DNA of 40,080 nt from Acuticoccus sp. I52.16.1 (GTDB taxonomy: Bacteria; Pseudomonadota; Alphaproteobacteria; Rhizobiales; Amorphaceae). The stretch is taken from NCBI RefSeq assembly GCF_022865125.1, contig NZ_CP094830.1:1-40080 (forward strand), in the 5' to 3' direction. Within the stretch, counting starts at the first letter, position 1. Each line of letters opens with the position of its first letter. Of this stretch, positions 7,703-40,080 are shown in pieces. The notes under the pieces were generated by a model. That model was not told the origin of the DNA and did no database searches. It saw nothing but the letters and a program-made list of their open reading frames with translations. The position numbers and the translations under genes were made by a program.

Positions 7703-7708
7703 GGCGCT

Positions 7709-7729: not shown

Positions 7730-7744
7730 TCTCCTCCGTGCCTC

Positions 7745-7769: not shown

Positions 7770-7787
7770 CCCCCTTCCCGATGCGCG

Positions 7788-7835: not shown

Positions 7836-7855
7836 TTCGTCAGTCCGAGAGCCCC

Positions 7856-8752: not shown

Positions 8753-8762
8753 AGGCGCCCGC

Positions 8763-18656: not shown

Positions 18657-20146
18657 GCCCCACCCTTTCGCCGGATGCGCTTGCCGAAGACGTGCGGCAG
18701 GACGATCGTCATCACCGAGAGGATGAGCAGGCCGAGCGCCATCGGTTTCTGAAAGAAGATCTCCGGGCCGCCGATCATCAGGCTGCGGAAGAAGTTCTCC
18801 TCCAGCGTCCGGCCGAGGATCAGGGCCAACAGCAGCCCGACGGGCGAATAGCCGAGGCGCTTGACGTAGAAGCCGAGCACCCCGAACACCGCCATCACGT
18901 GCACGTCGAACAGGAACTGCCGCGAGGTGAAGATGCCGATGATGCACAACACGAAGATCACCGGCAGCAGCACCTTGAGCGGCACGCTGACCACCCGCGC
19001 GATCACCGAGGCGAGCGGCAGGCAGACGAGCAGAATGATGCCGACGCACAGGAAGAGCGCCCAACCGATCGCCGCCGCCTCCGTGGCATAGTGGGTGTAG
19101 AAGCCCGGACCAGGACGGATGCCCTGGAGCATCAGCGCCGCCAGCGCGACGACCGCCACCGGGCTGCCGGGGATGCCGAGGGTGAAGGTCGGCAGCAGGG
19201 CACCGGGCACGACGGCGTTGTTGGCCGTGTCGGTCGCGACGAGCCCCTCCACGGAGCCCTTGCCGAAGCGCTCCGGATGGCGCGACCACTGCCGCGCCTG
19301 GCCATAGCTGATGACGCTGGCCGCCGAGCCGCCGGCGCCCGGTACGATGCCGATGAGGAGGCCGATCGCCGCCGACCGCACGATCGTCACCGGGTGCATC
19401 AGCGCCATCCTGACCCCGCGCAGCGGCCCGCGGATGCCCGATGGCGGTTGCGCCGCGATGGTGTCGAGCTTGGGCCGAGCGGCGAGGCGCAGCACCTCGG
19501 ACATGCCGAAGAGGCCGAGCAGAACGGGGAGGAGGGGGAGCGAGTCGTAGAGCTCGAGCAGGCCGAAATGCGCCCGTGGGACGCCTTCGTAGAGGTCGAG
19601 CCCGGTGGTCGCGACGAGGAGGCCGAGGAGGACCGAGGCGATGCCCTTGACGACGTCGGTCCCGGTGAAGGAGGCGACCGCCGACAGGCCGAAGACGCCC
19701 AGCATGAAGATCTCGGGCGAGCCCATGCCGTTGGCGATGGAGCCGACCAGCGGCCCGCAGACCAGGAACACCACCGCACCCAGAAAGGTGCCGATGGCGG
19801 AGGACGCCACCGAGATGCCGATCGCCTCGCCCGACTGGCCCTTGAGCGCGAGCTGGTGCCCCTCGAAGGCGGTCGGCGTGGTGCCGGGGGTACCGGGCAT
19901 GTTGAGGAGGATGGCCGGGTACGAACCCGCCGCCTCGGAGGCGACATAGCCGCCGGTGATGAAGAAGATGGCCGGCCAGACGTCGAGATAGATCGTGAAC
20001 GGCAGGACGATGGCGAGGAACGTGCTCTCGATCAGCCCGGGAATGGCACCGACGACGATGCCGCTGACGAAACCCAGCAGCAGCCAGCCGAAGTTTTCCG
20101 GCCGCAGCGCCAGCAACAGTCCGTCGAGGAGGGTGGAGGCGTCCAT
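18653..20146 (-). CDS. tctA: Tripartite tricarboxylate transporter, large membrane subunit TctA
   Basis: A 497-residue integral membrane protein with around a dozen hydrophobic segments. The two internal repeats of the family are marked by GAIPGL (about residues 33-38) and GIVPGAGG (about 265-272), and LLNMPGTPGTTPTAFEGHQLALKGQ is a conserved TctA stretch. TctA is the ion-coupled pore of the TTT family and imports carboxylates delivered by TctC. The start is 3 bases after the tctB stop and the stop overlaps the racemase gene, so the four genes are coupled. Length and motifs are complete. Confidence 0.94.
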   Translation of the reverse strand: MDASTLLDGLLLALRPENFGWLLLGFVSGIVVGAIPGLIESTFLAIVLPFTIYLDVWPAIFFITGGYVASEAAGSYPAILLNMPGTPGTTPTAFEGHQLALKGQSGEAIGISVASSAIGTFLGAVVFLVCGPLVGSIANGMGSPEIFMLGVFGLSAVASFTGTDVVKGIASVLLGLLVATTGLDLYEGVPRAHFGLLELYDSLPLLPVLLGLFGMSEVLRLAARPKLDTIAAQPPSGIRGPLRGVRMALMHPVTIVRSAAIGLLIGIVPGAGGSAASVISYGQARQWSRHPERFGKGSVEGLVATDTANNAVVPGALLPTFTLGIPGSPVAVVALAALMLQGIRPGPGFYTHYATEAAAIGWALFLCVGIILLVCLPLASVIARVVSVPLKVLLPVIFVLCIIGIFTSRQFLFDVHVMAVFGVLGFYVKRLGYSPVGLLLALILGRTLEENFFRSLMIGGPEIFFQKPMALGLLILSVMTIVLPHVFGKRIRRKGGA

Positions 20147-20149
20147 CGC

Positions 20150-20665
20150 TCAGAATCCGAGCGGCAGGGCGAGGAACGGGAAGCGCGGCACCGAGAGCCC
20201 CAGAATGTCGGCCAAAAACAGCGTGACGAGGAGGCCGGCGACGAGCCCGGTGGCGAGGCTCGCCAGCGTGCCGAGGCCGGAGACCAACCGCACCACGACG
20301 GCCGTGGCGAGGGCGATCGCAGCGGCGAAGCCGAGCCCGGTCGCCGCGAAGGGGAAGACGAAGGCCGTCACCGCGAGAACGGCCGCGCGCAATGCGCCGC
20401 GCAGGACGCCCGGCCCCAGCGCCACGGCCGCCGGAGCGTGCATCGCGGCCCTGACGGCGATGAGCCCGCCGAGTGCGACGAGCCCGGCGATCAGGATCAG
20501 CGGATAGGCGATGCTGTGCAGCGGCAGCTCGGCCACCTGCACCACGTAGGCGAGACAGTAGGCGAGGATGATGCCGGCGAACGCCAGCTCCTCGCGCCGC
20601 GACGGCGTGGTTTCGCCGGCGGCAGGGGAGGGGGGAGGGGCCCCCTCGCCACGGCCTTCGCGCAT
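20150..20665 (-). CDS. tctB: Tripartite tricarboxylate transporter, small membrane subunit TctB
   Basis: A 171-residue protein with four predicted membrane segments, for example LAFAGIILAYCLAYVVQVAEL, IAYPLILIAGLVALGGLIAV, AAVLAVTAFVFPFAATGLGFAAAIAL and LVAGLLVTLFLADILGLSV. This is the usual topology of the poorly conserved TctB subunit. The start at 20665 overlaps the tctC stop (TGATG); a longer in-frame reading runs inside tctC and is rejected. The first 30 residues are hydrophilic. Identification rests on position between tctC and tctA plus topology. Confidence 0.87.
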   Translation of the reverse strand: MREGRGEGAPPPSPAAGETTPSRREELAFAGIILAYCLAYVVQVAELPLHSIAYPLILIAGLVALGGLIAVRAAMHAPAAVALGPGVLRGALRAAVLAVTAFVFPFAATGLGFAAAIALATAVVVRLVSGLGTLASLATGLVAGLLVTLFLADILGLSVPRFPFLALPLGF

Positions 20666-21648
20666 CAGAGGTCGAGCGACTTGAGCTGCTCCAGGAAGTC
20701 GGCCTCGATCGCCTCCAACTCCTCGGGGCTGGTATATTTCAGCGACGCCGGCTGGAAATTGAGGTCGATCAGCGCCTTCTTCGTCGCCTCGGCGGTGTAG
20801 GTCTCGCGGTAGGCGTCGACGAGGTACCGGTAGACCTCGGGGTTCTCGTCGCGCACCTTGGCGGACACGCAGTAGGCGGTCGGGTGCATCAAGGTCAGCG
20901 CCTGCTCGGGGAAGAGATCGTAGACGCTCGGTGCGTCGATCACGTCCGGGATCGGGTTCTCCTTGTCGAAGATGCACAGGCAGCGCAGGTTCTCGTAGTC
21001 GTTGGACGCGTCATAGAGCCCGGTCCAGACGAGGTCGGTCTCGCCGCTGATCGCCGCGCGCCGGCTCGGGCCGCCGCCGTTGTAGGGCACGAAGCGCTCC
21101 TCGATGCCCATCCGCTTGTCGAAGATGACGCCGCTGATGTGGTACATCGCGCGCAGCGCCGCGACCGCGGCCGTGATCTGCTGCGTCTTCGCCGCCTCGA
21201 CCACCTGCTCCATCGACTCCCACTTGGAATCCTTGCCGGTGAAGACCGCGATCGGCCCGTTCCACATGGTGCCGAGATAGGCGAACGCGCCGTACGTGAA
21301 GTTCTGCGGCTTTCCCACGGCGATCGACACGTTCATGCTCGACACCGCGATGACGCCGAGCGTGTAGCCATCCGGCGGCGCGTTGACGATCGTCGTCGCC
21401 GACAGGATCCCGCCCGCGCCCGGCTTGAAGTCGGGAATGATGGTCTCGCCGGTGATGCGCGTCCACTCGGGGGTGATCGCGCGGGTGAAGCGGTCGTGCC
21501 CGCCGCCGGGGCTGGCGTCGACGATGGCGGTGAAGGGCTTGGAGGGGAAGTCCGCCGCCCAGCCGGAACGGGGCACGAGGCCCAGCACCGCCGCGCTCCC
21601 GAGGCCGACGCCTCCTGCGATCAGCGACCGCCGTGAAAGCTCCGTCAT
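20665..21648 (-). CDS. tctC: Tripartite tricarboxylate transporter, periplasmic binding protein TctC
   Basis: A 327-residue solute receptor of the Bug/TctC family. The N-terminus SRRSLIAGGVGLGSAAVLGLVP looks like a twin-arginine signal, unusual for this family, where Sec signals dominate. The mature part has FPSKPFTAIVDASPGGGHDRFTRAI, the family's ligand-loop region, and KPGAGGILSATTIVNAPPDGYTLGV. Bug proteins normally bind carboxylates through two water-bridged loops. GGAGG 5 bases before the ATG supports the start. Ligand unknown; a small dicarboxylate would suit the racemase-like enzyme of the operon. Confidence 0.92.
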   Translation of the reverse strand: MTELSRRSLIAGGVGLGSAAVLGLVPRSGWAADFPSKPFTAIVDASPGGGHDRFTRAITPEWTRITGETIIPDFKPGAGGILSATTIVNAPPDGYTLGVIAVSSMNVSIAVGKPQNFTYGAFAYLGTMWNGPIAVFTGKDSKWESMEQVVEAAKTQQITAAVAALRAMYHISGVIFDKRMGIEERFVPYNGGGPSRRAAISGETDLVWTGLYDASNDYENLRCLCIFDKENPIPDVIDAPSVYDLFPEQALTLMHPTAYCVSAKVRDENPEVYRYLVDAYRETYTAEATKKALIDLNFQPASLKYTSPEELEAIEADFLEQLKSLDL

Positions 21649-23512: not shown

Positions 23513-24562
23513 TCAGCTGCGTGATGCGAGGTGGGCGGCGACGACGTCGGCCGCACGCTCGACGCCGGCGCGGTCGACGTCGAGGTGGGTGACCGCCCGC
23601 AGCGTCGTCGGCGACTCGACGCCCATGCGGATGCCCTCCTCCTGGAGCGCGGCGGCGATCGCCGGGGCCGTGGTGCGCGTCGCGGCGACGTCGATGAAGA
23701 CCATGTTGGTCTCGACCTCGGGCGGCACGATGGCCACTCCCTCCAGCGCCGAGAGGCGGGCGGCGAGGATCTTGGCGTTGGCGTGATCCTCGGCGAGGCG
23801 GTCGACGTTGTGGTCGAGCGCGTAGAGGCCCGCGGCGGCGAGGACGCCGGCCTGGCGCATCGCCCCGCCCATCCGGTGCTTCCAGTCCCACGCCGCCTCG
23901 ATGAACGCCGCCGAACCGGCGAGGACGCCGCCGACCGGGCAGCCGAGGCCCTTCGACAGGTCGATCCAGGCGCTGTCGAGCCCGGCGCAGAACCGCTCGG
24001 CCGACACCCCGGTGGCGACGACCGCATTGAGGAGCCGCGCGCCGTCCATGTGGGTGGCGAGGCCCGCCTCGTGCCCCACGGCACAGACCGCGTCGAGCGT
24101 TTCGACCGGCCACACCGCGCCGCCGCCGCGGTTGGTCGGCTGCTCGACGCATACCACGCGGCTGCGCGGGCGGCGCATGCGCGGGGTGCGCAGCGCGGCC
24201 GTCACCGCCGCCGCGTCGAAGATGCCGCGCGGGGCGTCGACGGTGCGGAACTGCGCCCCGGCGAAGGTCGACGCGCCGGCCCCCTCCGAGCCGAAGACGT
24301 GCGCCGAATCGGCGACGATGATCTCGTCGCCCGGCCGGCAGTGGACCACGAACGCGATCTGGTTGCACATCGTCCCCGACGGCAGGAACAGCGCCGCCTC
24401 CATCCCCAGCATCGCCGCAACGCGCTCGTTGAGGGCGATCACGGTCGGGTCCTCGCCGCGCTGCTCGTCGCCGACGGGGGCGGTGGTCATCGCCTCCAGC
24501 ATGGCCCGGCCGGGGCGCGTCGAGGTGTCGGAGACGAGGTCGATTTCGATGGGTCGGGCCAT
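23513..24562 (-). CDS. ltaE: Low-specificity L-threonine aldolase
   Basis: A 349-residue PLP-dependent fold-type I enzyme that cleaves L-threonine, L-allo-threonine and related beta-hydroxy amino acids to glycine and an aldehyde. N-terminal [28 protein letters not shown], the [14 protein letters not shown] phosphate-loop region, [11 protein letters not shown] with the PLP-nitrogen Asp173, and the Schiff-base Lys204 in [12 protein letters not shown] are all present. It is the last gene of the minus-strand gntR-aapJQMP unit, 75 bases after aapP. I infer that the imported amino acid is a beta-hydroxy amino acid, or that aldolase releases glycine for the cell. Confidence 0.93.
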
Positions 24563-24637: not shown

Positions 24638-25399
24638 CTACGCCGCCTTGGGAGCGAGGTGGCTGAGGAAGGCGCGGGCACGGTCGGTCCGCGGCGCGCC
24701 GAAGAAGGCCTCCGGCGGCGCAGCCTCGACGATCTCGCCCGCGTCCATGAAGACGACGAGATCGGCGACGCGCCGGGCGAAGCCCATCTCGTGGGTGACG
24801 ACGATCATCGCCTGCCCGGCGGCGGCGAGATCCTCCATCACGTCGAGCACCTCGTGCACCATCTCGGGGTCGAGCGCGGAGGTCGGCTCGTCGAACAGCA
24901 TCACCTCCGGCTCCAGCATCAACGCTCTGGCGATGGCGACGCGCTGGCGCTGCCCGCCGGAGAGCTGGCCGGGGAACTTCCACGTCTGATCGGCGAGGCG
25001 CACGCGGGCCAGCAGGCGGTGCGCGCGCTCCAGCGCGGCATTCTCCGGCTCGCCGCGTGAGTAGATGGCGCCGAGGGTGAGGTTGTCCATCACGGTGAGG
25101 TGCGGGAAGAGGTTGAAACTCTGGAACACCATGCCGGTGCGAAGACGCACCCGGTCGAGCGTCTTCTGCGTGCCGTCGAGCGGCATGCCGCAGACGGTGA
25201 GCGCCCCCTCCTCGAAGCGCTCCAGCCCGTTGATGCAGCGGATGAGCGTCGACTTGCCCGATCCCGACGGGCCGCACAGCACCATCCGCTCGCCGGGGGC
25301 GAGGCCGAGGTCGATGTCGCGCAGGACGTGGTGCGCGCCGAACCACTTGTTGAGAGCGCGCATCTCGACGATGGGGCCCTCGGCCCGTGCCGTGCTCAT
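24638..25399 (-). CDS. aapP: Polar amino-acid ABC transporter ATP-binding protein AapP
   Basis: A 253-residue ATPase of the polar amino-acid uptake family. Walker A GPSGSGKS at residues 43-50, Q-loop FQSFNLFPHLTVMDN, signature LSGGQRQRVAIARAL, Walker B VMLFDEPTSALDPEMV and switch His in THEMGFARR are all intact. The order aapJ-aapQ-aapM-aapP and the subunit lengths match the rhizobial general L-amino-acid permease. The start overlaps the aapM stop (ATGA); the long in-frame upstream reading is inside aapM and is rejected. Confidence 0.93.
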   Translation of the reverse strand: MSTARAEGPIVEMRALNKWFGAHHVLRDIDLGLAPGERMVLCGPSGSGKSTLIRCINGLERFEEGALTVCGMPLDGTQKTLDRVRLRTGMVFQSFNLFPHLTVMDNLTLGAIYSRGEPENAALERAHRLLARVRLADQTWKFPGQLSGGQRQRVAIARALMLEPEVMLFDEPTSALDPEMVHEVLDVMEDLAAAGQAMIVVTHEMGFARRVADLVVFMDAGEIVEAAPPEAFFGAPRTDRARAFLSHLAPKAA

Positions 25400-26523
25400 C
25401 GCTCGGCCCTCCGTTTGCGGGCATTCGCCTGCCGCTCGATCGACCGCCCGTAGGCCGCCAGCGCCGAGCAGATGACGAAATAGAGGGCGAAGACGAAGAT
25501 GTAGCCCTCCATGCCGTAGCGCACCCAGTTGGGGTCCTGCAGCGCCGTCTTGGTCGCGCCGAGCACGTCGAACAGGCCCAGGATGGAGAAGAAGGTGGTG
25601 TTCTTGAAGGCGCGGATGATGTCGTTGAAGAGCGCCGGGGTGGAGATCGCCATCGCCTGCGGCAGCACCACCTTGCGCATCCGCAGCCAGTAGCCGATGC
25701 CGAGTGCGCGCGCCGCCTCGTCCTGCCCCGCCGGCACCGCTTGCAGGCCGCCGCGCACCACCTCCGCCGCATAGGCGGCGAAGAAGACGATCATGCCCAC
25801 CTCGGCGCGGATCAGCTTGTCGACGTTCATCCAGTCGGGCGTGAAGAGCGGCAGGATGAGGGCCGCGAAGAACAAGACGACGAGCAGCGGGATGCCGCGC
25901 ACCACGTCGATCGTCAGGATCGACAGCCAGCGCACCGCCGGGAGTTGCGAGCGGCGGCCGAGCGCCAGCAGGATCGCGAGCGGCAGGCCGCCCGCGACCG
26001 TGCCGCCGAAGATGAGGAAGGTCAGCGGTAACCCGCCCCAGAGGTCGGTGCCGACTGGCGACAGGCCGAAGACGCCGCCCTTCATGAGGACGATGGAGCC
26101 CGCGAACAGCGCCAGCCAGCCGAGGATCTTGGCACGCGACGGCACCAGGCGGGAGGCCGACAGCACCGCCCACACGATCCAGATCGCGACGATGAGCGCG
26201 CCGCGCCAATGCTCGTCGTAGGGGTACGAGCCGAACAGCATGACGCGGTATTTTTCCGGCACCACGGCCCAGCAGGCGCCGGCGGCGTCGCGGCAGGCGG
26301 CACCGTCTCCGGGGGCGTACCACACGGCGTGGACGAGGCCCCACATGACGATCTGGTAGCCGAGGCCCAGCGCGATCACGGCCAGGATGACCGTGGCGAC
26401 GCTGGTCAGCGGCCCGCCGAAGAGGCGGCGGAGCTGGACGGCGAGGCCGCGCGCGGCCACCGGCGCCTCGCGCGGCGGGGTCGACGAGGGGCGGGCGTAG
26501 GATCCGGGAGCGGCGAGGGACAT
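25396..26523 (-). CDS. aapM: Polar amino-acid ABC transporter permease AapM
   Basis: A 375-residue permease. The N-terminal half has extra membrane segments and a periplasmic loop (YAPGDGAACRDAAGACWAVVPEKYR) as in AapM, which is longer than HisM-type permeases. The core His/Glu/Gln/Arg permease domain starts near residue 170 and includes the coupling loop AARALGIGYWLRMRKVVLPQAM. It forms a heterodimer with AapQ. The start at 26523 shares bases with the aapQ stop (TGATG). Longer in-frame readings lie within aapQ. Confidence 0.91.
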   Translation of the reverse strand: MSLAAPGSYARPSSTPPREAPVAARGLAVQLRRLFGGPLTSVATVILAVIALGLGYQIVMWGLVHAVWYAPGDGAACRDAAGACWAVVPEKYRVMLFGSYPYDEHWRGALIVAIWIVWAVLSASRLVPSRAKILGWLALFAGSIVLMKGGVFGLSPVGTDLWGGLPLTFLIFGGTVAGGLPLAILLALGRRSQLPAVRWLSILTIDVVRGIPLLVVLFFAALILPLFTPDWMNVDKLIRAEVGMIVFFAAYAAEVVRGGLQAVPAGQDEAARALGIGYWLRMRKVVLPQAMAISTPALFNDIIRAFKNTTFFSILGLFDVLGATKTALQDPNWVRYGMEGYIFVFALYFVICSALAAYGRSIERQANARKRRAER

Positions 26524-27713
26524 CAGCGCTCCTTGATCTGCACGAGGGCGTTCAGCACGTTGGCGCACGCCGAGATGGTGAGGGAGATCACGAGGTAGAC
26601 CGCCGCCATGACGCACAGCACCTCGATGGTGCGGCCGCTGTAGGTCAGCATCGTGTTGGACACGCTGAAGAGCTCCGGATAGCCGACCGCGACGCCGAGC
26701 GAGGAGTTCTTCACCAGCGAGACGTACTGCGCCGAGAGCGGGGGAATGATGACCCGCAGCGCCTGCGGGGCGACGACGCGGCGGTAGAGGTCCGCGCGCG
26801 GCAGGCCGATGGCGTTGGCCGCCTCGATCTGCCCCGAATCGACGCTGGCGAGGCCGCCGCGGACGATCTCGGCGATGAACGCCGCGATGTAGAACGAGAG
26901 GCCGAAGTAGATGGCGAGGAACTCGGGCGAGAGCGTCACCCCGCCGCGATAGTTGAAGCCCTTCAGCGCCGGCACGCTCCACCCGGCCGGGAAACCCGCC
27001 AGCGCCCACACCGCGACGGGCGGCACGAGGACCACGGCCGCCAGCACGAGGCGCGCCAGCGGGACACGGCGCCCGGTGCGTCGTCGCCGCCGGTCGAACG
27101 CGCGCGACAGGACGACCGCGGCGGCGATCCCGGCCGCGAGCGCCACCGCCACCCACATGAGGGTCGTCCCGTCCGCCGGCGCCGGCAGCGTCAGCCCGCG
27201 GTTGGAGGCGAAGCCGAGGCCGGCGAGCGACAGCGCGTCACGCGGCGAGGGGAGCGTCGCGAAGAAGGTGTACCAGAAGATGATCTGAACGAGCTGCGGC
27301 GTGTTGCGGAAGAGCTCGACGTAGACCCGCGCCACCCCCTCGACCAGCGGATTGGCCGACAGGCGCATGAGGCCGAACGCGGTGCCCAGCAGCGTCGCGG
27401 CGAGGATGCTGACGGCCGACAGCGCCAGCGTGTTGCCGAGCCCGACGCCCAGCGCCGCGAGGTAGGTCTCGCCCGCCTCGAAATGGAAGAAGCCCTCGCC
27501 GAGCGCGAACGGCGCCGAGGAGAGGAGATAGCCGAAACCCGACGTCATCCCCCGCGCGTCGAGCGCACTGCGCGCGTTGAGGGCGAGGAGCACGATCACG
27601 GCGACGATGCCGAGGACGAGCGCGCTCTGCCACAGCGTCGCCCTCAGGTTCTCGCGCCGGAATGGCGCCGCCAGGGCGCCGCCATTCGTCTTGGAAAATG
27701 TCGGCAAGGACAT
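26523..27713 (-). CDS. aapQ: Polar amino-acid ABC transporter permease AapQ
   Basis: A 396-residue permease with an N-terminal membrane segment (LWQSALVLGIVAVIVLLAL), the NTLALSAVSILAATLLGTAFGLMRLS segment, ELFRNTPQLVQIIFWYTFFATLP typical of the family, and the EAA coupling loop AANAIGLPRADLYRRVVAPQAL. The length matches AapQ. AAGGA before the ATG at 27713 fixes the start; the frame is open further upstream but inside aapJ. The gene follows aapJ after 25 bases. Confidence 0.91.
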   Translation of the reverse strand: MSLPTFSKTNGGALAAPFRRENLRATLWQSALVLGIVAVIVLLALNARSALDARGMTSGFGYLLSSAPFALGEGFFHFEAGETYLAALGVGLGNTLALSAVSILAATLLGTAFGLMRLSANPLVEGVARVYVELFRNTPQLVQIIFWYTFFATLPSPRDALSLAGLGFASNRGLTLPAPADGTTLMWVAVALAAGIAAAVVLSRAFDRRRRRTGRRVPLARLVLAAVVLVPPVAVWALAGFPAGWSVPALKGFNYRGGVTLSPEFLAIYFGLSFYIAAFIAEIVRGGLASVDSGQIEAANAIGLPRADLYRRVVAPQALRVIIPPLSAQYVSLVKNSSLGVAVGYPELFSVSNTMLTYSGRTIEVLCVMAAVYLVISLTISACANVLNALVQIKER

Positions 27714-27738
27714 GGATCCTTCGGGTTTCGTCGCCGGC

Positions 27739-28767
27739 TCAGAACGGCGGCGAGTAGATGAGGCCGCCGTCGCCGTGCTGGGCGTTGATGCCGCGCTCCA
27801 GCTTGAGCGCCGACCCCATGCCGACGTTGCGCTCGAACACCTCGCCGTAGTTACCGACCTGCTTGACGACATTATAGGCCCAGTCCGGCTCCAGCCCGAG
27901 GCCGCCTGCGTCACCGTCGACACCCAGGAGGCGCTGCACGGCCGGGTCCTCGCTGGTCTCCTTCATCTCGTCGACGTTCTCGGACGTGACGCCGCTCTCC
28001 TCGGCCTGGAACATCGCGTAGACCACCCAGGTGACGATGTCGCGCCACTGCGGGTCGTCCTGGCGCACCACCGGGCCCATCGGGTCCTTGCCGAAGATCT
28101 GCTTCAGGATGACGTAGTCGTCCGGGTTCGGGGCGACCGCGGCGCGGGTCGAGGAGAGGCCCGAGGTCGACTGCACGGCGACGTCGCAGCGCCCGCCGAA
28201 GAAGGCGGTGTTGATCTCCTTCTGGTCCTCCAGCACGACGAGCGACAGCTCGATGCCGAAGGTCTTCTGGATGTCGGCGACGACGCGCTCGGAGGTCGAG
28301 CCGGGGCGCACGCACACGCTGGCGCCGTCGAGGTCGGCCACCTCGGTCACGCCGAGCTCCTTGGAGAGCATCAGGCCCTGTCCGTCGTAGAAGGTGGCGG
28401 AGACGAAATCGAGGCCGAGGTCGGTGTCGCGCGCGCGGGTCCAGGTGGTGTTGGCGACGGTCATGTCGACCTCGCCGGTCTGGAGCGCGGTCAGCCGGGT
28501 CTGATTGTTGGTCTTGAGGAACTTGACCTTTCCGGCGTCGCCCAGGACCGCGGCGGCGACCGCCCGGCAGGTGTCGATGTCGAGGCCGTTCCACTCGCCG
28601 CGGCTGTCGACGGCGGAGAAGCCGGGGCGGCTGCCGTTGACGGCGCAGGTGACGACGTCGGCCGCGCGCACGTCCTCCAGCGTCGTGGCGTGCGCGGCGC
28701 CGGTCGCGAGCGTCGCCAGCGCGGTGCAGGCGGCGATGAGACCGCGTGTCGATCGATTGGCCATCAT
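27739..28767 (-). CDS. aapJ: Polar amino-acid ABC transporter substrate-binding protein AapJ
   Basis: A 342-residue periplasmic receptor. Signal peptide at residues 1-28 (TRGLIAACTALATLATGAAHATT), then the AapJ/BztA-type body: VNGSRPGFSAVDSRGEWNGLDIDTCRAVAAAVLGDAGKVKF, TRLTALQTGEVDMTVANTTWTRARDTDLGLDF, and a C-terminus with NYGEVFERNVG. These receptors bind several L-amino acids with broad range. Its ATG overlaps the gntR stop (ATGA) with GGAG just upstream, so regulator and transporter are one transcription unit. A second in-frame ATG follows directly. Confidence 0.92.
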   Translation of the reverse strand: MMANRSTRGLIAACTALATLATGAAHATTLEDVRAADVVTCAVNGSRPGFSAVDSRGEWNGLDIDTCRAVAAAVLGDAGKVKFLKTNNQTRLTALQTGEVDMTVANTTWTRARDTDLGLDFVSATFYDGQGLMLSKELGVTEVADLDGASVCVRPGSTSERVVADIQKTFGIELSLVVLEDQKEINTAFFGGRCDVAVQSTSGLSSTRAAVAPNPDDYVILKQIFGKDPMGPVVRQDDPQWRDIVTWVVYAMFQAEESGVTSENVDEMKETSEDPAVQRLLGVDGDAGGLGLEPDWAYNVVKQVGNYGEVFERNVGMGSALKLERGINAQHGDGGLIYSPPF

Positions 28768-29633: not shown

Positions 29634-30854
29634 ATGGACGCTCACGCTCCCAGCCTCTGGTGGACCGCCGTTCCGCCCGCGCCGTGCGAGACCCCGGAGG
29701 CGTTTCGCGCGCAGTTTCCCGCGCTGGAGCGGTGGACCTACCTCAACACCGCGTCGGTCGGGGTGATGTCGGCGCGGGCGGCGGACCGGGCGAAACGCGT
29801 GGTCGAGGCGATCTCGCTGGGCGACTTCTCCAAGGAGGAGGCGTCGCCGATGCTGGCTTCGGCGCGGGCCGGGTTCGGCGGCCTCGTCGGCGCGGCGGCG
29901 GACCAGGTGGGCGTCGTCAAGAACGTGTCGGACGGGCTCAACGCGCTGGCGACGGCGGTGCCCGGCGAGGGCGGTAACGTCGTCGTCTGCACGGCGATGG
30001 AGCATCCGAACAACATCTACCTGTGGCAGAAGATGGCCGCCGCCGGGGTCGAGATCCGCGACGTGCCGGCCGAGGACGGGCACATCCCCGCGCACGCGAT
30101 GGCCGCCGCGATCGACGCCGAGACGCGCATCGTCACCGCCTCATCGGTGACCTTCACACCCGGCTTCCGCACCGATCTGGCGACCATCGGCCGGGCGGCG
30201 CGCGAGCGGGGCGCGTTCTTCCTGGTCGACGCGGTGCAGAGCTGCGGCGTCGTCGAGCACGATCTCGAGGCGGAATTCATCGACGGCCTCGTCACCTCGA
30301 CGACGAAGAACCTCCTCGGCTCGGCGGGTCTCGGCTTCGTCGCGGTGGCGCGGCCGTGGATCGAGCGGCTGACCCCGGTCTACGTCTCGCGCTACGGCGT
30401 CGCGCGCGGCTCCGGCCACGAATCGGAGATCGAGAGCGCGCCGTTCGCCTTCGATCCGACGGCGAGCCGCTTCGAGGTGGGCAATCACAATTGGCCGGCG
30501 ATCGCCGCCGCGGACGTCGCCATCGGCGAGATCGCGGCGCTCGGTCTCGGCCCGATCGCGCGCCACGCGACGGAGCTGGCGGACGCGCTGCGCGACGGGC
30601 TGGAGGCCGAAGGCTTCGCCGTCAACCGGCCGCGCGATCCGGCGCTGCGCACACAGATGGTGACGCTCGGCGTGCGCGGCGCGGGCACCGCCTACGAGAC
30701 CGACGACCGCCGCCTCAACACCATGGCGCAGGCGCTCCGCGAGGCGAAGGTGCGCTTCTCGATCCGCCGCGGCCTGGTGCGCTTCGGCGTCCACGGCTTC
30801 AACGATGCGCGCGACGTCGAGACGGTGCTGCGGGTCGCTCGCGACGTCGCCTGA
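29634..30854 (+). CDS. Class V aminotransferase / cysteine desulfurase-like PLP enzyme
   Basis: A 406-residue fold-type I PLP enzyme. Segments: YLNTASVGVMS near the N-terminus, NVSDGLNALA, CTAMEHPNNIYLW, FLVDAVQSCGVVEHD with the PLP-nitrogen Asp, and the Schiff-base Lys225 in STTKNLLGSAGLGF. The overall pattern resembles isopenicillin-N-epimerase- and kynureninase-like members more than IscS, and the IscS catalytic Cys loop is absent. The ATG at 29634 is preferred because family similarity begins there, though its ribosome site is weak; upstream in-frame starts would add up to 31 residues. It is divergent from gntR-aap and shares the operator region, so a role in catabolism or racemisation of the imported amino acid is likely. 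Confidence 0.85.
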   Translation: MDAHAPSLWWTAVPPAPCETPEAFRAQFPALERWTYLNTASVGVMSARAADRAKRVVEAISLGDFSKEEASPMLASARAGFGGLVGAAADQVGVVKNVSDGLNALATAVPGEGGNVVVCTAMEHPNNIYLWQKMAAAGVEIRDVPAEDGHIPAHAMAAAIDAETRIVTASSVTFTPGFRTDLATIGRAARERGAFFLVDAVQSCGVVEHDLEAEFIDGLVTSTTKNLLGSAGLGFVAVARPWIERLTPVYVSRYGVARGSGHESEIESAPFAFDPTASRFEVGNHNWPAIAAADVAIGEIAALGLGPIARHATELADALRDGLEAEGFAVNRPRDPALRTQMVTLGVRGAGTAYETDDRRLNTMAQALREAKVRFSIRRGLVRFGVHGFNDARDVETVLRVARDVA

Positions 30855-31000: not shown

Positions 31001-34000
31001 TCAGGGCGCGGCCACGACCGGGCCGCCCGGGCCGGGGACGTCCTCCCCCCGGCCGCTCCCCGTCACCACCCGGTTGCGCCCGTCGCGCTTGGCCTCGTAG
31101 AGCCGGGCGTCGGCACGGCGGATGAAATCGGCCAGCGTGTCGGCCGGCTGGGGGACCGCGGAGTGGCTGCCGATGCTGACCGTCAGCGCGCACGTCTGGC
31201 TGCCCTGGACGACGGGGGCCTCCTCGACCGCACGCCGCAGCGCCTCGAGCCGGGCCGTGAAGTCGGCCGGTGAGCCACCGAGGGTGAAGATCACGAACTC
31301 CTCGCCGCCATAACGGGCGAGCACGTCGCCGCCACGGCGGAAGATGCGCAGGCACAGCGCCGCCAGATGGCGCAGACACAGGTCGCCGAACACGTGCCCC
31401 AGCTCGTCGTTCACCGCCTTGAAGTGGTCGGCGTCGACCATCGCGATCGAGAACAGCCAGCCGTTGCGCTGGCACACGGCGAACTCCTCGGCGCTGCGGG
31501 CGTCGAAGTGGTGACGGTTGTGGAGGCCGGTCAGGCGATCGGTGATCGAGACCTCCTGCAGCTTGCCGTTGGCGGCGGCGAGGTCGTCGTTCAGCCGCTT
31601 CAGCTTGCGGTTCCAGTAGAAGACCAGCGCCAGCACCAGTCCGGCGCCGGCGGCGAGAACGAGAAGGCGCGTATAGTCCACCTGCCGCTCGATGCGGATC
31701 AGCATCTGCCGGCTGAGGATCGCCTGCACCGCGCTCTCGTCGAGGCTCGCCAGGAGCTTGGAGAAGATCGCGGCGAGCTGCGGCTTGTCCGCGTCCGTCG
31801 CGAAGGAGGCGCGCCAATCCTCGGCGATGCGGCCGGCGATCTTCACGTCACCCGCCCGCTCGGAGGCGATCAGATAGCCCAGGCTCGGCAACGTGCCGAG
31901 GGCGGCGTCGAGCGTCCCGTCGCGCACCGCCTCCAGCGCCTCGGCTTCCGAGTCCATCTCGACCAGCGTCACGTCCGGATAGCGGCGCGCCAGGATGTGG
32001 GCCGGGCTCTGTCCGGGCACCACGCCGACGCGCAGACCGGCGAGCCCGGCCATGCCCTCCACGAACGGGTCCTGCAGCTCGCTGACGACCGCCATCGGCA
32101 GCGACAGATAGGGGGCGGTGAAGTTCCAGGCCGGGCCGGGTTCGTTGCGCTCCATGGCGAAGGGAACGACGTCGCAGTCGTGCCGGGCGAGCAGCTCCGG
32201 GCCGAGGCCGCGGGTGGTCACGGGGACCACCTGCCAGGCGAAGCCGCCGCGCTCGGCGAGTTCGCCCATCACCTCGGCGGCGACACCGGTGAACGCGCCG
32301 TTGCGGTCGACGGCCATGTAGGGCGGGGACGCCGGGTCGATGCACACCTTCACGACGCCCTTGCTGTCGAGGTAGGCGCGTTGCTCGGTGGTCAGCATCG
32401 CGCGTTGGCGCTCGATCCCGGAGATCGACGGGCCGAGCCAGCGTGTCTCCAACTCGTTCCAGCGGCTGGTGGGGATTGCGGCCATGGTGCGGTCGATGAT
32501 GCTGCGCACGAACGGGTAGCGCGGCGAGACGCCGAAGCGAAGGTCCTCCCGCTCCACCCCGTCCATCAGGAATTCGCCGCCGATCTCGATGTTGATGAGG
32601 CCGAGGTGGCGGATGATCGCATTGCCGTTCGAGAGCGCGATGATCGCCGCGTCCACCTCGCCGCCGGCGAGCGCCGCGACGATCTCTTCCTGCGTCGCAT
32701 AGGTGCGCACGTCCGGCAGGCGGTTCTTCAGCGCCTCGGCATAGTAGATGTTTTCGCCGATGCCGACGGTGTGTCCGGCCAGTGACGGGAGGCCGCGGTA
32801 CGGCCCGAACCCCGAGCGCACGAAGACCGCATTGGGAATACGGTAGTACTCGCGCGAGAACACCGTGAAGGCCTCTCGCGCCTCCGTGCGCGAAATGTTG
32901 CTGATGACGTCGATCTCGCCGGCCTTGAAGGCGGTGAGAAGGTTCGTCCAATTGTCGAACACCGGGTCGATCGCGAGGCCGGTGCGGGCGGAGATCTCGT
33001 GCGCCAGCTCCACCGCGAAGCCTTGGCCGCGCCCGTTGGCGAGGAAGCTGAAGGGTTCATAGTCGCTGATGAAGCCGACCTTGAGCGGCGGGGCGCCGGC
33101 GATGAAGGCCTGCTCCTCCGGAAGCAGGCGCAGCGGGCCGGCGGTGAGGATGCGCCCGTCGCGGTAGGAGAGCCAGCGCTCGGTGATCGCGGCGAGATCG
33201 GCGGTCGGGATCGCCGCGACCGCCTTGGTCAGCACCGCATGCAGCATCTCGCGGTCGCGATCGCCGGGCACGCGCAGGACCCCGAGGCGGAAGTCCTCCA
33301 GCGCCACTCCGGTGAGGGCGAGCGGGCCGACCGCCGCGACGTTGACGAAGCCGTTCTCGCGGGCGAAGAAATTGCCTGTCATCTCCGCGGCGATCACCGC
33401 GTCCACCCAGCCGAAGGCGAGCGCGGCCATCAGGTCGCGATAGGTGTCGTAGACCACGGGCTCGATCCCGGCGGCGACGAGGGCGGGGGTGTAGTAGATG
33501 TCCTTGATGACGCCGACGCGCCGCTCCGCCAGGGTCGCGACGTCCACCGGGCCGGTCAGCGGCCGGTCGACGTTGTGGAAGACCATGGTACGGCGCAGGT
33601 GGTAGGCGTCGGTGAAGGCGGTGAAGGGGAGCCGCTCGTCGGTGCGTGAGATGTCGGCGATGGCGTCGAGGCCGCCGTCTCGGAACGTGCCGTAGATCTC
33701 GCGCCAGGCGCCCATACGCGGGATGATGCTCAGCCCGGTGATCGCCTCGATCCGGTCCAGGACGTCGATCGTCCAGCCGAGGTTACGGCCGTTGCGGAAG
33801 AAGGAATAGGGCTCGTTGTCGGCCACGACGCCGACGGTGATCGGCCGCTGCGCCGCGAGCCACTCGGTCTCCGCCTCGCTGAATGGCCCGGCGGTGGCGG
33901 CGCCGGTGCCGGCCAGCCAGCCGGCGAGAATCAAGCCGAGCAGCAGCACCTGGGCGCGCAGCACCAGCACCTGCGTCAATGAGGGTTGCGATCGCCTCAA

Positions 34001-34314: not shown

Positions 34315-35136
34315 ATGCTCGATCGGGATTCACCCCTCCTCCCCGGCGCGGCCCCGCCCAAACCCGGCGCCAAACGCAGCTTCGCCGAGGAGCGCCTGCG
34401 CGAAGCCGTCATCACCTGCGAGATCATGCCGGGGACGAAGGTGTCCGAGGCCCGCCTCGTCAGCCTCTACGGGCTCAACCGGGCGGGGGTGCGCGCGTCG
34501 CTGATGCGGCTGGAGGCGGGCGGTCTCGTCGAAGCGATGCCCCGGCACGGCTGGCGCGTGCGCCCGGTCTCCGGCGCCTATATCGGCGAGGTGGTCGCCG
34601 CCCGCCGGACGCTGGAGCCGGCCGTCGCCACAGTGCGGCACGACCCGGCCCAACTCGACCGGCTCGACAATCTCGCCCAGGTCGCCGCCGTGCTGGCCGA
34701 GCGGCAGGAGCCGGGCGCGCGGTCCAGTCTGCGCAGCTACGAACGGGAATTCCTCGGCATCCTCGCCGCGCCGCTCGGCGACCTGCGGCGCCGCTGGCTG
34801 CACGAGGCGTGGGACCACAGCGAACGCCTGATCCGCTTCTTCGAGGCGGGCTCGGATCGCCGCGCCGGGGCGCCCGGCCGGGCCCCCCTCGTCGCCGCGC
34901 TGCGGGCCGCCGATCCGGCCGCCGTCACCGCCGCCCTCGGCCAGGCGCTCTACTCTTTCGAGGCCTTCGTCCTCGCCGCCCTCACCGAGCAGGACGTCGA
35001 AATCCGCCGCACGCCTCCGAAGACGACGCCGGCCACGGATACCGCCGCCGCCGGACGAGGCCTCGCGCCAGCACCGTCCCCGCGTAACACAAACCCCAGA
35101 AGAGGATCGCTCGAATGGACTGGAGACAAGGACTAG
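34315..35136 (+). CDS. GntR-family regulator of the peptide-type transport operon
   Basis: A 273-residue regulator with an N-terminal winged HTH (about residues 23-80: FAEERLREAVITCEIMPGTKVSEARLVSLYGLNRAGVRASLMRLEAGGLVEAMPRHGWRV) and an FCD-like helical C-terminal domain that lacks clear His metal ligands. The last 40 residues are Pro/Thr-rich and probably unstructured. It overlaps the start of the first binding-protein gene by 22 bases. There is no ribosome site in front of the ATG, and the predicted promoter leaves a very short leader or none. It probably controls the operon through the palindrome at 34281. Confidence 0.87.
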   Translation: MLDRDSPLLPGAAPPKPGAKRSFAEERLREAVITCEIMPGTKVSEARLVSLYGLNRAGVRASLMRLEAGGLVEAMPRHGWRVRPVSGAYIGEVVAARRTLEPAVATVRHDPAQLDRLDNLAQVAAVLAERQEPGARSSLRSYEREFLGILAAPLGDLRRRWLHEAWDHSERLIRFFEAGSDRRAGAPGRAPLVAALRAADPAAVTAALGQALYSFEAFVLAALTEQDVEIRRTPPKTTPATDTAAAGRGLAPAPSPRNTNPRRGSLEWTGDKD

Positions 35137-36623
35137 TCGCCGCGGCGCTCAGCGTCGCCGCCGGCCTCGCCGTCGCGCCGCCCGCGATGGCGCAGACGAA
35201 GGACACCCTCACCATCGACCTCGTCAACGAGCCTTCGTCGCTCGATCCGCAAGGTCAGTGGAACCCGGACAGCTACTACGTCTACCGCAACGTCTTCGAC
35301 AACATGGTCACCCGCGACAACGACGGGACCATCGTGCCGCAGGTCGCCACCGAGTGGGAGCAGGTCTCCGACACCGAGGTGAAGTTCACCCTGCGCGACG
35401 ACATCGTCTTCCACGACGGCGAGCCGCTGACCGCCGAGGACGTCGTCTACACCATCGAGCGGATCACCGATCCGGAGTTCGCCAGCCCGCAACTCGGCCA
35501 GTTCAACAAGATCGTGAAGGCCGAGGCGACGGGCGAGCACGAGGTCGTCCTCACCACCGACGGTCCCTATCCGGTCCTCCTGCCGCAGCTCGTGAAACTC
35601 TCCATCATCCCGAAGCACGTGGTGGAAGAGGTCGGCGACGACGCTTTCAACGCCGGCCCCGTCGGCAGCGGCCCCTACGCGTTCGACACGTGGCAGCGCG
35701 GCGTCTCGGTGACGCTGAAGCGCAACGACGACTATTGGGGCGACAAGGGTGCCTTCGGGACGGTCGTCTTCCGCGCCGTGCCGGACGGGGCGACGCGCCT
35801 CGCCGACCTGCAGTCGGGCGCGGCCGACGTGGTGGTGACGCTCGACAGCGACCAGGCCAAGCAGCTCGAGAGCTACCCCAACGCCAAGCCGCTGATCGTG
35901 CAGACCGAACGTGTCGGTTACTTCGCGCTCAACTCCACCAAGCCGCCGCTGGACGACCCGAAGATGCGCCTCGCCATCGCGCTGGCGATCGACAAGGAAG
36001 GCATCGTCGAGGGCATCCTGCAAGGCGGCGAGAAGGTGGTCGGCGAGCTGGTCGCCCCGGCGAGCTTCGGCTACGTCGGCGAGGTCGAGGCGTTCCCCTA
36101 CGACCCGGAGCAGGCCAAAGCGCTGATTGCCGAGGTGGGCGACGTCGCCCAGACGCCGATGAAGCTCGCCACCTCGCCCGTCTTCGACCAGAAGATCGTC
36201 CAGGCGATCCAGCAGATGCTGACCGACGTCGGCCTCGACGTCGAGATCGAGATGACCGACATGGCCACCTGGCTGAAGAACCAGCAGGTTTCCAACGAGG
36301 AGGCGCCGATGCTGACCTTCTCGCGTTGGTCGTGCGCCTGCCAGGACGCCGACGGCATCATGTTCTCGCTGCTGCACTCGTCGTCCAACTGGTCGCGCTA
36401 CAGCGATCCGGAGATCGACGCGCTGCTCGAGAAGGGTCGCTCGGCGCTCGAGGATGGCGACCGGCTGGAGGCCTATGGCAAGCTGCATGAGCTGGTGAAG
36501 GAAGACGTGCCGATCATCCCGCTCTACCAGGCGGCGATCATCTACGGCGGGGCCGCCGGGCTCGACTGGCAGCCGACCGCCAACGAGAGCATGTTCCTCA
36601 ACCGCATGAGCTGGTCCGAATAG
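35115..36623 (+). CDS. Peptide/nickel-type ABC transporter substrate-binding protein, copy 1
   Basis: A 502-residue periplasmic receptor of the SBP_bac_5 (DppA/OppA) family. A signal peptide (GLVAAALSVAAGLAVAPPAMAQT) precedes TIDLVNEPSSLDPQGQWNPDSYYVYRNVFDNMV; VGSGPYAFDTWQRGVSVTLKRNDDYWGD is the typical middle of the family. A Cys pair WSCACQDADGIM lies near residue 410. AGAGGA 8 bases before the ATG supports this start inside the gntR gene. It is very similar over its full length to the next gene, a tandem duplication. Its DppB/DppC partners follow, and its DppD/DppF partners are at the left end of the window. Confidence 0.93.
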   Translation: MDWRQGLVAAALSVAAGLAVAPPAMAQTKDTLTIDLVNEPSSLDPQGQWNPDSYYVYRNVFDNMVTRDNDGTIVPQVATEWEQVSDTEVKFTLRDDIVFHDGEPLTAEDVVYTIERITDPEFASPQLGQFNKIVKAEATGEHEVVLTTDGPYPVLLPQLVKLSIIPKHVVEEVGDDAFNAGPVGSGPYAFDTWQRGVSVTLKRNDDYWGDKGAFGTVVFRAVPDGATRLADLQSGAADVVVTLDSDQAKQLESYPNAKPLIVQTERVGYFALNSTKPPLDDPKMRLAIALAIDKEGIVEGILQGGEKVVGELVAPASFGYVGEVEAFPYDPEQAKALIAEVGDVAQTPMKLATSPVFDQKIVQAIQQMLTDVGLDVEIEMTDMATWLKNQQVSNEEAPMLTFSRWSCACQDADGIMFSLLHSSSNWSRYSDPEIDALLEKGRSALEDGDRLEAYGKLHELVKEDVPIIPLYQAAIIYGGAAGLDWQPTANESMFLNRMSWSE

Positions 36624-36697: not shown

Positions 36698-38209
36698 GTG
36701 AAACGCTTGACCTCACCGCTCCTGGCTCTCGCGTTCGGTATCGCGATCGCCGGGGCGACGGCCGCCCTCGCCCCGGCCGAGGCGAAGGATCGGATCACGA
36801 TCGACCTCGTCAACGAGCCCTCCTCGCTCGACCCGCACGGTCAGTGGAATCCGGACAGCTACTACGTCTATCGCAACATCTTCGACAATCTCGTCACCCG
36901 TGACGACGAGGGGACGATCGTCCCGCAGCTCGCGACGGCGTGGACCCAGCTCTCCGACACCGAGGTCGAGTTCACGCTGCGCGACGACGTCACCTTCCAC
37001 GACGGCACGTCGCTGACGGCCGCGGACGTCGTCTATTCGGTGGAGCGGATCACCGATCCGGAGTTCGGCAGCCCGCAGCTCGGCCAGTTCAACAAGATCG
37101 TCAAGGCCGAGGCGACCGGCGACCACACCGTGGTCCTCACCACCGACGGCCCCTATCCGGTGCTCCTGGCGCAGCTCGTCAAGCTCTCCGTGGTGCCCGA
37201 GCACGTGGTCGAGGAGGTCGGCGACGACGCCTTCAACCTCAGCCCCGTCGGCAGCGGCCCCTACCAGTTCGACGAATGGCGGCGCGGCGTCTCCGTCTCG
37301 CTGACCCGCAACGACGCCTACTGGGGCGACGCGGGGCCGTTCGCGACCGCCCTCTTCCGCGCTGTGCCCGACGCCTCCACCCGGATGGCGGACCTGCAGG
37401 CCGGCACCGCCGACCTCGTCGTCAGCCTCGACAGCGACCATGCCGGCCAGCTCGAGGCGACGCCGGGCGTGAAGCCGCTCGTGGCACAGACCGAGCGCGT
37501 CGCCTTCCTCGGTCTCAACACGATGAAGCCGCCGTTCGACAATGCCGACCTGCGCAAGGCGGTTGCCTACGCGATCGACAAGGACGGCATCGTCGAGGGT
37601 ATCCTGGCGGGCGGCGAAGAGGTGGTCGGCGAGTTGATCGCGCCGGGAAGCTTCGGCTGGGTCGACGGGATCGAGCCCTACCCCTACGACCCGGACAAGG
37701 CCAAGGAGCTGATCGAGGCGGCCGGCGCCACCGGCACCGAGGTCGTGTTCGACACCTCGCCCGTCTACGACCAGCGCATCGTCCAGGCGGTGCAGCAGAT
37801 GCTCGCCGACGCGGGCTTCGACGCCAAGATCAGCCTGACCGACATGTCGACCTACCTCGGCAAGGCGCGCAGCCCCGAAGTGACGGATCGCCCGCAGATC
37901 AGCTTCGGCCGCTGGTCGTGCGCCTGCCAGGACGCGGACGGCATCATGTACCCGCTGCTCCACTCCAGCAGCTCCTGGTCGCGCTACCAGAACCCCGAGA
38001 TGGACGCGCTCCTCGACGAGGGCCGCTCCTCGCTCGACGACGCGACCCGCCTCGCCGCCTACGAGAAGGCGCACCACATCGCCAAGGACGAGGTGGCGAT
38101 CCTGCCGCTCTACCAGGCGGCCGTGATCTACGGCGCGCGCGAGGGGCTGGCGTGGCAGCCGACCGCCAACGAGAGCCTGTTCCTCAACCGCATGGGTTGG
38201 CAGGACTGA
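36698..38209 (+). CDS. Peptide/nickel-type ABC transporter substrate-binding protein, copy 2
   Basis: A 503-residue paralogue of the preceding gene. The signal peptide differs (LTSPLLALAFGIAIAGATAALAPAEAK), while the mature part keeps almost every landmark: IDLVNEPSSLDPHGQWNPDSYYVYRNIFDN, SPQLGQFNKIVKAEATGDHTVVLTTDGPYPVLL, VGSGPYQFDEWRRGVSVSLTRNDAYWGD and WSCACQDADGIM. The differences are spread rather than clustered, and both copies are intact, so this is an established duplication. It may give a second receptor with altered ligand range for the same permease. The first permease gene follows after 20 bases. Confidence 0.93.
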   Translation: MKRLTSPLLALAFGIAIAGATAALAPAEAKDRITIDLVNEPSSLDPHGQWNPDSYYVYRNIFDNLVTRDDEGTIVPQLATAWTQLSDTEVEFTLRDDVTFHDGTSLTAADVVYSVERITDPEFGSPQLGQFNKIVKAEATGDHTVVLTTDGPYPVLLAQLVKLSVVPEHVVEEVGDDAFNLSPVGSGPYQFDEWRRGVSVSLTRNDAYWGDAGPFATALFRAVPDASTRMADLQAGTADLVVSLDSDHAGQLEATPGVKPLVAQTERVAFLGLNTMKPPFDNADLRKAVAYAIDKDGIVEGILAGGEEVVGELIAPGSFGWVDGIEPYPYDPDKAKELIEAAGATGTEVVFDTSPVYDQRIVQAVQQMLADAGFDAKISLTDMSTYLGKARSPEVTDRPQISFGRWSCACQDADGIMYPLLHSSSSWSRYQNPEMDALLDEGRSSLDDATRLAAYEKAHHIAKDEVAILPLYQAAVIYGAREGLAWQPTANESLFLNRMGWQD

Positions 38210-38229: not shown

Positions 38230-39159
38230 ATGCTGTTCTTCGTCCTCCGCCGCCTCGGCCAGGCCGCCATCGCGATCTTCGGTGTCATGACGCTGGTGTT
38301 CTTCATCCAGCGTCTCACCGGCGATCCCACCTACCTCCTCGTTCCCGAGACGGCGACGCAGGCCGACATCGACGCCATGCGCGCCTCGCTCGGCCTCGAC
38401 CGGCCGCTGATCGTGCAATACGTCGCGTTTCTGGGCGATATCCTGCACCTCGACTTCGGCCGGTCCTACATCCAGCGCATCCCGGTGACCGACATCATCG
38501 CCGCGCGCCTTCCCTACACGCTGCAACTCGCCGCCGGCGCGCTGCTGGTCTCGTTCGGGCTGGGCGTCCCGCTCGGCGTCGTGATGGCGCTGGGGCGCGG
38601 CAAGGCGCTCACCCAGCTTCTCTCGGGCTTCGTCTTCGCCTCGCAGAGCATGCCGACCTTCTGGTCGGGCATCCTCTTCATCATGGTGTTCGCCGTCGGC
38701 CTCGGCTGGCTGCCGCCGTCCGGCGCGGGGGGGCTCGCCAACCTCGTCCTGCCGTCGGTCGCGCTGGGCCTCCTGTCGATGGCGACCTTCGCGCGCGTCA
38801 CCCGCACCGCCGTGCTGGAGGAACTGTCCAAGGACTATGTGCGCTCGGCCCGCGCACGCGGCGTCGGCCTCGGACGGCTCTTCTTCCGGCATCTCCTGCG
38901 CAATGCGGCGATCCCGGTGATCTCGGTCGCGGCGCTGGAAATCTCGCAGCTCCTCGCCGGCGCGGTGATCGTCGAGACGGTGTTCGCCTGGCCGGGCCTC
39001 GGGCTTCTGACCGTGCAGTCCATCGTCTCGCGCGACTTCCTGGTGGTGCAGGCGATCGTCCTCATCGGCGCGTTCGTCACCATCGCGTTGAACTTCACCG
39101 CCGACATCCTCTACAGCGTCGTCGACCCGCGCATCCGGCTCGACGGGGCGCGGCCGTGA
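38230..39159 (+). CDS. dppB: Peptide/nickel-type ABC transporter permease (DppB class)
   Basis: A 309-residue inner-membrane permease with about six membrane segments. N-terminal MLFFVLRRLGQAAIAIFGVMTLVFFIQRLTGDP is the DppB hallmark; ASLGLDRPLIVQYVAFLGDILHLDFGRSYIQ follows, and the EAA coupling loop is DYVRSARARGVGLGRLFFRHLLRNAAIPV. It pairs with the DppC-type subunit, whose GTG start overlaps its stop by four bases. Confidence 0.94.
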   Translation: MLFFVLRRLGQAAIAIFGVMTLVFFIQRLTGDPTYLLVPETATQADIDAMRASLGLDRPLIVQYVAFLGDILHLDFGRSYIQRIPVTDIIAARLPYTLQLAAGALLVSFGLGVPLGVVMALGRGKALTQLLSGFVFASQSMPTFWSGILFIMVFAVGLGWLPPSGAGGLANLVLPSVALGLLSMATFARVTRTAVLEELSKDYVRSARARGVGLGRLFFRHLLRNAAIPVISVAALEISQLLAGAVIVETVFAWPGLGLLTVQSIVSRDFLVVQAIVLIGAFVTIALNFTADILYSVVDPRIRLDGARP

Positions 39160-40016
39160 GCGCCGCCGGACCCGCGGTGCGCCCCCGCCGCCGCCCCTCC
39201 TTCAAGGTCGGCATCTGGCCGTTCGTGGCGATCTTCTTCGCGTTCGTCGTGGTCGCGGTCTTCGCGCCGTGGCTCGCGCCGTACAATCCCAACGCGCAGA
39301 ACCTCATGGGCCGCCTCAAGCCGCCCGGCGTCGAGGCGCGCAACTTCTTCTATCTCCTCGGCTCGGACGAGCTGGGGCGCGATCTCCTCAGCCGCATCAT
39401 CTTCGGCGCGCGGATCTCGCTGTCGGTGGCGATCCTCTCGGTGGGCCTGTCGTCGATCGTCGGCACCGTCCTCGGCATGGCCGCGGGCTACTTCCGCGGC
39501 ATCGTCGAGACGGTGATCATGCGCATCGTCGACATCTTCCTGTCGGTGCCGGCGATCCTTCTCGCCATTATCACCGTCGCGGTGCTGGGGCCGGGGTTCA
39601 CCAACGTCGTCATCGTGCTGGCGCTCACCCGCTGGCCGCGCTACGCCCGCGTCGCCTACGGGCAGACGCTGTCGGTCGCGGGAATGCCGTATGTGCGCAT
39701 CGCACGCTTCATGGGTGCGGGGCCGGGGCGGGTGCTCTTCTTCCACATCCTCCCCAACATCATCGGCCCGCTCACCGTCGTCGCGACGCTGGAATTCGGG
39801 CTGATGGTGCTGTTCGAGGCGGGGCTCTCCTTCCTCGGCCTGGGCGTGCAGCCGCCGACGGCGAGCTGGGGCGCCATGCTGAGCGTCGGCCGCAACTATG
39901 TCGCCACCGCGTTCTGGATCGCGACTTTTCCGGGGCTCTGCCTCTTTCTCCTCATCCTGTCGGTCAACCTGATCGGGGACGCCCTGCGCGACCGGCTGGA
40001 TCCAAAGTCGAGGTGA
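39156..40016 (+). CDS. dppC: Peptide/nickel-type ABC transporter permease (DppC class)
   Basis: A 286-residue second permease. The start is GTG, overlapping the dppB stop (GTGA). FLAPYNPN-like WLAPYNPNAQNLMGRLKPP, the LLGSDELGRDLLSRIIFGARISLSVAI segment and the EAA loop PYVRIARFMGAGPGRVLFFHILPNIIGP are family hallmarks; EAGLSFLGLGVQPPTASWGAML is near the C-terminus. The stop is followed after four bases by the SDR start, with GAGGTGA as its ribosome site. No ATPase follows directly; the ATPases lie at 3172-5159. Confidence 0.94.
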   Translation: MSAAGPAVRPRRRPSFKVGIWPFVAIFFAFVVVAVFAPWLAPYNPNAQNLMGRLKPPGVEARNFFYLLGSDELGRDLLSRIIFGARISLSVAILSVGLSSIVGTVLGMAAGYFRGIVETVIMRIVDIFLSVPAILLAIITVAVLGPGFTNVVIVLALTRWPRYARVAYGQTLSVAGMPYVRIARFMGAGPGRVLFFHILPNIIGPLTVVATLEFGLMVLFEAGLSFLGLGVQPPTASWGAMLSVGRNYVATAFWIATFPGLCLFLLILSVNLIGDALRDRLDPKSR

Positions 40017-40020
40017 CACG

Positions 40021-40080
40021 ATGAATTTCGAGGGCGAGTTCGAGGGCAAGTCGGTCGTCGTGACCGGCGCCTCGGGCCTC
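40021..40080 (+). CDS. Short-chain dehydrogenase/reductase, N-terminal 20 codons, cut by the window edge
   Basis: MNFEGEFEGKSVVVTGASGL is the first beta strand and the start of the glycine-rich NAD(P)-binding turn of an SDR. The ATG follows dppC by four bases with a good ribosome site. Position 3 of the window continues with GSRLAATFAKEGARV. If one base is missing at the join, the two parts read TGASGLxGSRLAATF, where x is Asn, Asp, His or Tyr. That gives the TGxxGxxG spacing of a nucleotide-binding loop and correct spacing to the next helix. I therefore regard both fragments as one gene on a circular molecule. Confidence 0.85.
   Translation, partial: MNFEGEFEGKSVVVTGASGL

Follow-up and report, generated by a model that had tools for sequence, protein, structure and literature searches.

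The stretch of DNA analyzed here (the window, 40,080 bp) is the entire contig C3 of genome G000. This genome consists of six contigs, the other five being C1 (5,134,086 bp), C2 (123,782 bp), C4 (50,674 bp), C5 (80,413 bp), and C6 (97,478 bp). Both ends of the window lie within an SDR gene, which stands in the middle of a peptide-uptake operon. The regulator and the first part of this operon are found at the right-hand end of the window and the second part at the left-hand end, in the following order:

34315-35136, + strand: GntR-family regulator upstream of the split operon (PF00392)
35115-36623, + strand: peptide-binding protein 1 (SBP family 5, PF00496)
36698-38209, + strand: peptide-binding protein 2 (SBP family 5, PF00496)
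38230-39159, + strand: DppB-type permease (PF00528 and PF19300)
39156-40016, + strand: DppC-type permease (PF00528 and PF12911)
40021-40080, + strand: 5' part of the SDR gene, comprising 20 codons up to the contig end (tblastn identity of 80% to the N-terminus in locus L037 and 75% in L039)
1-731, + strand: remainder of the SDR gene (the split codon takes up bases 1-2, and the frame resumes at base 3)
741-1616, + strand: polysaccharide deacetylase family enzyme (PF01522)
1623-3179, + strand: gamma-glutamyltranspeptidase (GGT) family enzyme (PF01019)
3172-4164, + strand: OppD-type peptide ABC transporter ATPase (PF00005 and PF08352)
4161-5159, + strand: OppF-type peptide ABC transporter ATPase (PF00005 and PF08352)

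A preliminary description of this DNA had noted that the peptide ABC system is without ATPases at the right-hand end and without permeases and receptors at the left-hand end, and the Pfam matches confirm this division. Going by its gene families, the operon probably serves the import of a compound of peptide-like or gamma-glutamyl type, which would probably be processed via the transpeptidase, the deacetylase-fold hydrolase, and the SDR. No paper was found in a literature search that combined the five gene terms of this operon.

The genes for replication and maintenance are located in the interior of the window, all on the minus strand:

11165-12181, - strand: RepA replication initiator (PF10134), the sole match of its family on C3
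14007-14635, - strand: probable toxin-antitoxin pair, an HTH protein and a ParE-family toxin (PF01381 and PF05016)
16449-16736, - strand: small protein beside ParA, a possible partition partner (weak ribbon-helix-helix matches, under the curated cut-offs)
16720-17397, - strand: ParA/VirC1-like partition ATPase (PF07015)

C3 therefore has its own replication initiator and partition genes (PF10134 and PF07015), as expected of a complete plasmid. The single rep/par/TA set described earlier was recovered among the 37 gene calls, which include one RepA, one ParA-like gene, and one toxin-antitoxin pair. Other matches to PF10134 in G000 were located on C2 (two), C4, and C6. The two RepA-family matches on C2 lie at 7841-8527 and 112350-113042, and judging from them, C2 may be a fused plasmid.

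Three further transporters are encoded on C3: one of the branched-chain ABC type at 6413-11160, one of the polar amino-acid ABC type at 24638-28767, and a tripartite tricarboxylate transporter at 18653-21588. Two PLP enzymes lie at 23513-24562 and 29634-30854. Positions 31001-33970 of the minus strand encode a large protein in which three SBP_bac_3 sensor stretches are combined with a GGDEF domain. This protein is likely an amino-acid-sensing diguanylate cyclase, carried here on a small plasmid. Judged by the families of its genes, C3 would be a small RepA plasmid dedicated to taking up and degrading amino-acid-like compounds.

The last 60 bases of the window (40021-40080) consist of an ATG and 19 further codons (MNFEGEFEGKSVVVTGASGL) and lie directly after the DppC permease gene. 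At the opposite end, an open frame (frame 3) extends from base 3 to base 731 and starts with GSRLAATFAKEG; it encodes an SDR without the N-terminus. The Pfam family adh_short_C2 (PF13561) matched this left-hand piece with 175.5 bits over residues 1-226, starting at profile position 9. Both NNAG and YCTSK are present in its translation, in agreement with the SDR motifs NNAG and catalytic YxxxK. When TGASGL of the right-hand end is followed by one residue and the G of the left-hand end, the result is TGxxGxxG, with the same spacing as in relatives. This is presumably the glycine-rich cofactor loop. The classical SDR glycine loop is TGxxxGxG. The joined SDR would comprise 20 + 1 + 242 = 263 residues. 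The earlier reading of the last 20 codons as an SDR N-terminus, and of the frame from base 3 as an SDR lacking that N-terminus, is confirmed.

The spacing of the two SDR pieces at the join was compared with that in 80 homologous loci (the best 80 of 90), which were picked by the deacetylase neighbor alone and in which the two pieces were placed separately. One of these loci (L100) is without an SDR. The pieces were exactly 3 bases apart in all of the 79 SDR-holding loci, whereas the window has only 2 bases at this position (bases 1-2). The ends of the window therefore join one base short, and the molecule would measure ~40,081 bp. This is in line with the earlier claim that one added base at the junction restores an SDR of ~263 residues. 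A plain comparison of open frames is ambiguous in DNA of 70% GC and was never used alone.

When the ends are joined without an added base, the SDR is frameshifted. C3 could in that case be circular and complete as written, with a real frameshift and the SDR a natural pseudogene. We regard this as highly improbable, because the defect would have to fall exactly at the arbitrary end of the contig, where the other five contigs are also one base short (see below), and because the remaining genes of the operon are full-length open reading frames.

A search of G000 for a second copy of either end found none. The next-best SDR by E-value was 37% identical, and the other DNA matches to the ends in this genome were short, the best match to the right-hand 600 bases being 67% over 397 bases (40 of the 236 first-look candidates were scored). 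No terminal overlap was detected either, as the last and first 4 kb of C3 share no 20-mer. This lack of overlap would fit a C3 that is linear and part of some larger replicon, with ends that lie in separate SDR genes or in separate copies of the operon, and nothing further was found in favor of such a fragment. However, the two pieces are complementary to within one base and have the correct operon on both sides, and the SDR and DNA matches just described are distant ones. The version with two operon copies was rejected because the second copy was not found, and a linear fragment of either kind is extremely improbable.

The order of the genes around the SDR was examined in the same 80 loci. 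The full order SBP-DppB-DppC-SDR-deacetylase-GGT-OppD-OppF was present in 63 of them and the core DppB-DppC-SDR-deacetylase-GGT in 72. The operon is unbroken in genome G005 (L037, same genus), in Lutibaculum baratangense (L046), and on plasmid CP031588.1 (L039). The order is not universal, as eight loci are without the core. In six of these (L064, L083, L085, L093, L106, and L116), the SDR and the deacetylase are present with no transporter core adjoining; the other two are L071, a 3.4 kb contig with no scored DppB in place, and L100, which has no SDR. The full order is incomplete in 17 loci, some of them on contigs that end early (e.g., L059, L061, and L063). On plasmid NZ_CP115854.1 (L038), the SDR and the deacetylase adjoin without the transporter. 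This conserved operon was encountered mostly in alphaproteobacteria.

Because the window is the whole of C3, the assembly holds no flanking sequence that would contradict the join, and the continuation into a different gene beyond either end, which the preliminary description had named as evidence against it, does not occur in the assembly. The spacing of the SDR pieces (79 of 79 loci), the order of the operon, the lack of a further copy elsewhere in the genome, and the absence of flanking sequence on the contig together support that the ends of C3 adjoin in the molecule. They uphold the original proposal of one circular plasmid of about 40 kb, cut inside an SDR gene.

The missing base is not peculiar to C3. 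All six contigs of G000 were one base short at the join, a result that is well supported for C3 and C1 and thinly supported for C2, C4, C5, and C6. C1 is cut in a mechanosensitive-channel gene. Read by position, a single residue lies between the two pieces in six of the seven relatives (L131-L136, same genus), where it precedes a conserved proline/arginine stretch at the start of the right-hand piece; in the distant relative L137, zero residues lie between them. Since the relatives have one residue here and C1 has two bases, C1 is one base short. Automatic tblastn pairing returned a spacing of 3 bases for four relatives (L131, L132, L134, and L135). It also returned -55 for L133, L134, and L137, in every case from a very weak match of the right-hand piece (E 0.4 to 6).

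The cut in C2 falls close to the end of a gene for a Mutator-family transposase. Only one homologue, L195, was informative; here a single residue separates the pieces, and two bases are present in C2. The L195 transposase is itself fragmented over two frames in the genome that carries it. No other copy of the C2 end that spans the join was found in G000, and the longer transposase tails that were compared for C2 end differently. C4 is cut in a gene without a Pfam match; its sole homologue (L181) shows a single residue at this place, with two bases present in C4. In C5, a gene for a DctP-type receptor is cut, and its left-hand piece was found in five loci, that of C5 included. L166 and L175 gave no pair, and one of the two pairs obtained (L156) has a spacing of 3 bases, with two present in C5. 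The other pair (L162) has a spacing of -3, which is in frame, so that the shortfall is still 3k+1. C6 is cut in a tandem repeat, where the distance between fixed words is 18 at the join vs 19 and 19 in two neighboring units.

These joins bear on how the base of C3 could have been lost. The length of C3 is an exact multiple of 60 (40,080 = 668 x 60), and the preliminary description took this as a sign that a short last line of a FASTA file with lines of 60 had been dropped; a true length of 40,081 would indeed leave a last line of one base. The lengths of C1 to C6 modulo 60 are 6, 2, 0, 34, 13, and 38, and the five contigs that are not multiples of 60 share the one-base loss. A lost last line was therefore rejected as the cause and is very unlikely, and the multiple of 60 proved uninformative. 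That C3 is a multiple of 60 is chance, at 1 in 60 for one contig.

The loss could also originate in the sequence store used here, if this store removed one base per contig. As controls, 20 contig joins were fetched from 12 other genomes, and three of them were resolved (G027:C1, G064:C2, and G043:C1). The join of G043:C1, from a single-contig genome of the same order but another family, was one base short. It was tested by Pfam positions in an inositol monophosphatase gene (L211 and L231), where the pieces stop at profile position 98 and restart at 100, with two bases present. G043 comes from the same store as G000, and its missing base would fit a fault of the store. In contrast, G027:C1 (11 of 11 homologues) and G064:C2 (both pieces found in 5 of the 11 loci, all five in agreement) come from this store as well and join without a missing base. 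The joins of G007:C2 and G007:C7 seem to be in frame without an added base, and the Pfam positions gave no decision for them. A fault of the store has, at most, a slight probability. Because two control joins are complete and one is short, the one-base loss most likely stems from certain assemblies, and neither from the sequence store nor from the plasmid.

With high confidence, we read C3 from these comparisons as a complete circular RepA-type plasmid of ~40,081 bp, with a systematic circularization error at the join. The assembler would have linearized this alphaproteobacterial plasmid at an arbitrary point within the SDR gene, in the middle of a nine-gene operon for peptide uptake and catabolism. 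One base would then have been lost at the join through an error of circularization (overlap trimming), and the same error would have struck the remaining replicons of the assembly. We infer the artefactual origin because the loss recurs on all six contigs; the join itself follows from homology. The uniform loss of one base at six joins suggests a deterministic trimming slip.

Comparable faults have been described for long-read assemblies. Passages of one paper report that Flye left out bases at the contig start or end in 13 of 22 assemblies, with a mean error of 3.7 bp (PMC8442456), and passages of another describe the same kind of start/end fault, amounting to tens of bases (PMC6966772). The circularization losses in these passages vary in size, whereas G000 lost one base at each of six joins. 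In the literature on assembly circularization faults, which was covered mostly superficially, no report of a uniform one-base loss was found. On the basis of the six of six contigs of G000 and the single join of G043, we consider it moderately probable that a set of public complete genomes carries a deterministic off-by-one at every circular join, and that a replicon cut within a gene then shows a false frameshift at coordinate 1. Were such losses frequent among public assemblies, simply scanning the contig joins would reveal and flag them.

For C3, this means that the contig very probably contains the complete plasmid, and that in the living cell the SDR and the peptide operon are, again very probably, uninterrupted. 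An annotation with a truncated SDR or with a split transporter would show an artefact. The plasmid is biologically ordinary, and the one-base loss across the whole assembly is the sole mildly surprising part.

The plasmid can be compared with three known systems that carry the same operon. The circular plasmid pLA6_003 (CP031588.1) of Paracoccaceae bacterium La 6 holds this operon unbroken, from SBP through OppF. It is 178 kb in size, against 40 kb for C3, and has one binding protein in the operon where C3 has two. At the DNA level, the best match to positions 1-25000 of the window covers 9% at 73% identity (window positions 1704-5068, with a second matching place in the record). In Lutibaculum baratangense AMV1 (L046) and in G005 (L037), nine genes are collinear with the joined window, the two binding proteins included, and the operon proteins share identities of about 70-89% with those of C3. 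The contigs that carry the operon in these two genomes measure 181,787 bp (L046) and 1,425,829 bp (L037), and the SDR is whole in both, in contrast to the 40 kb C3, where it is split between the contig ends.
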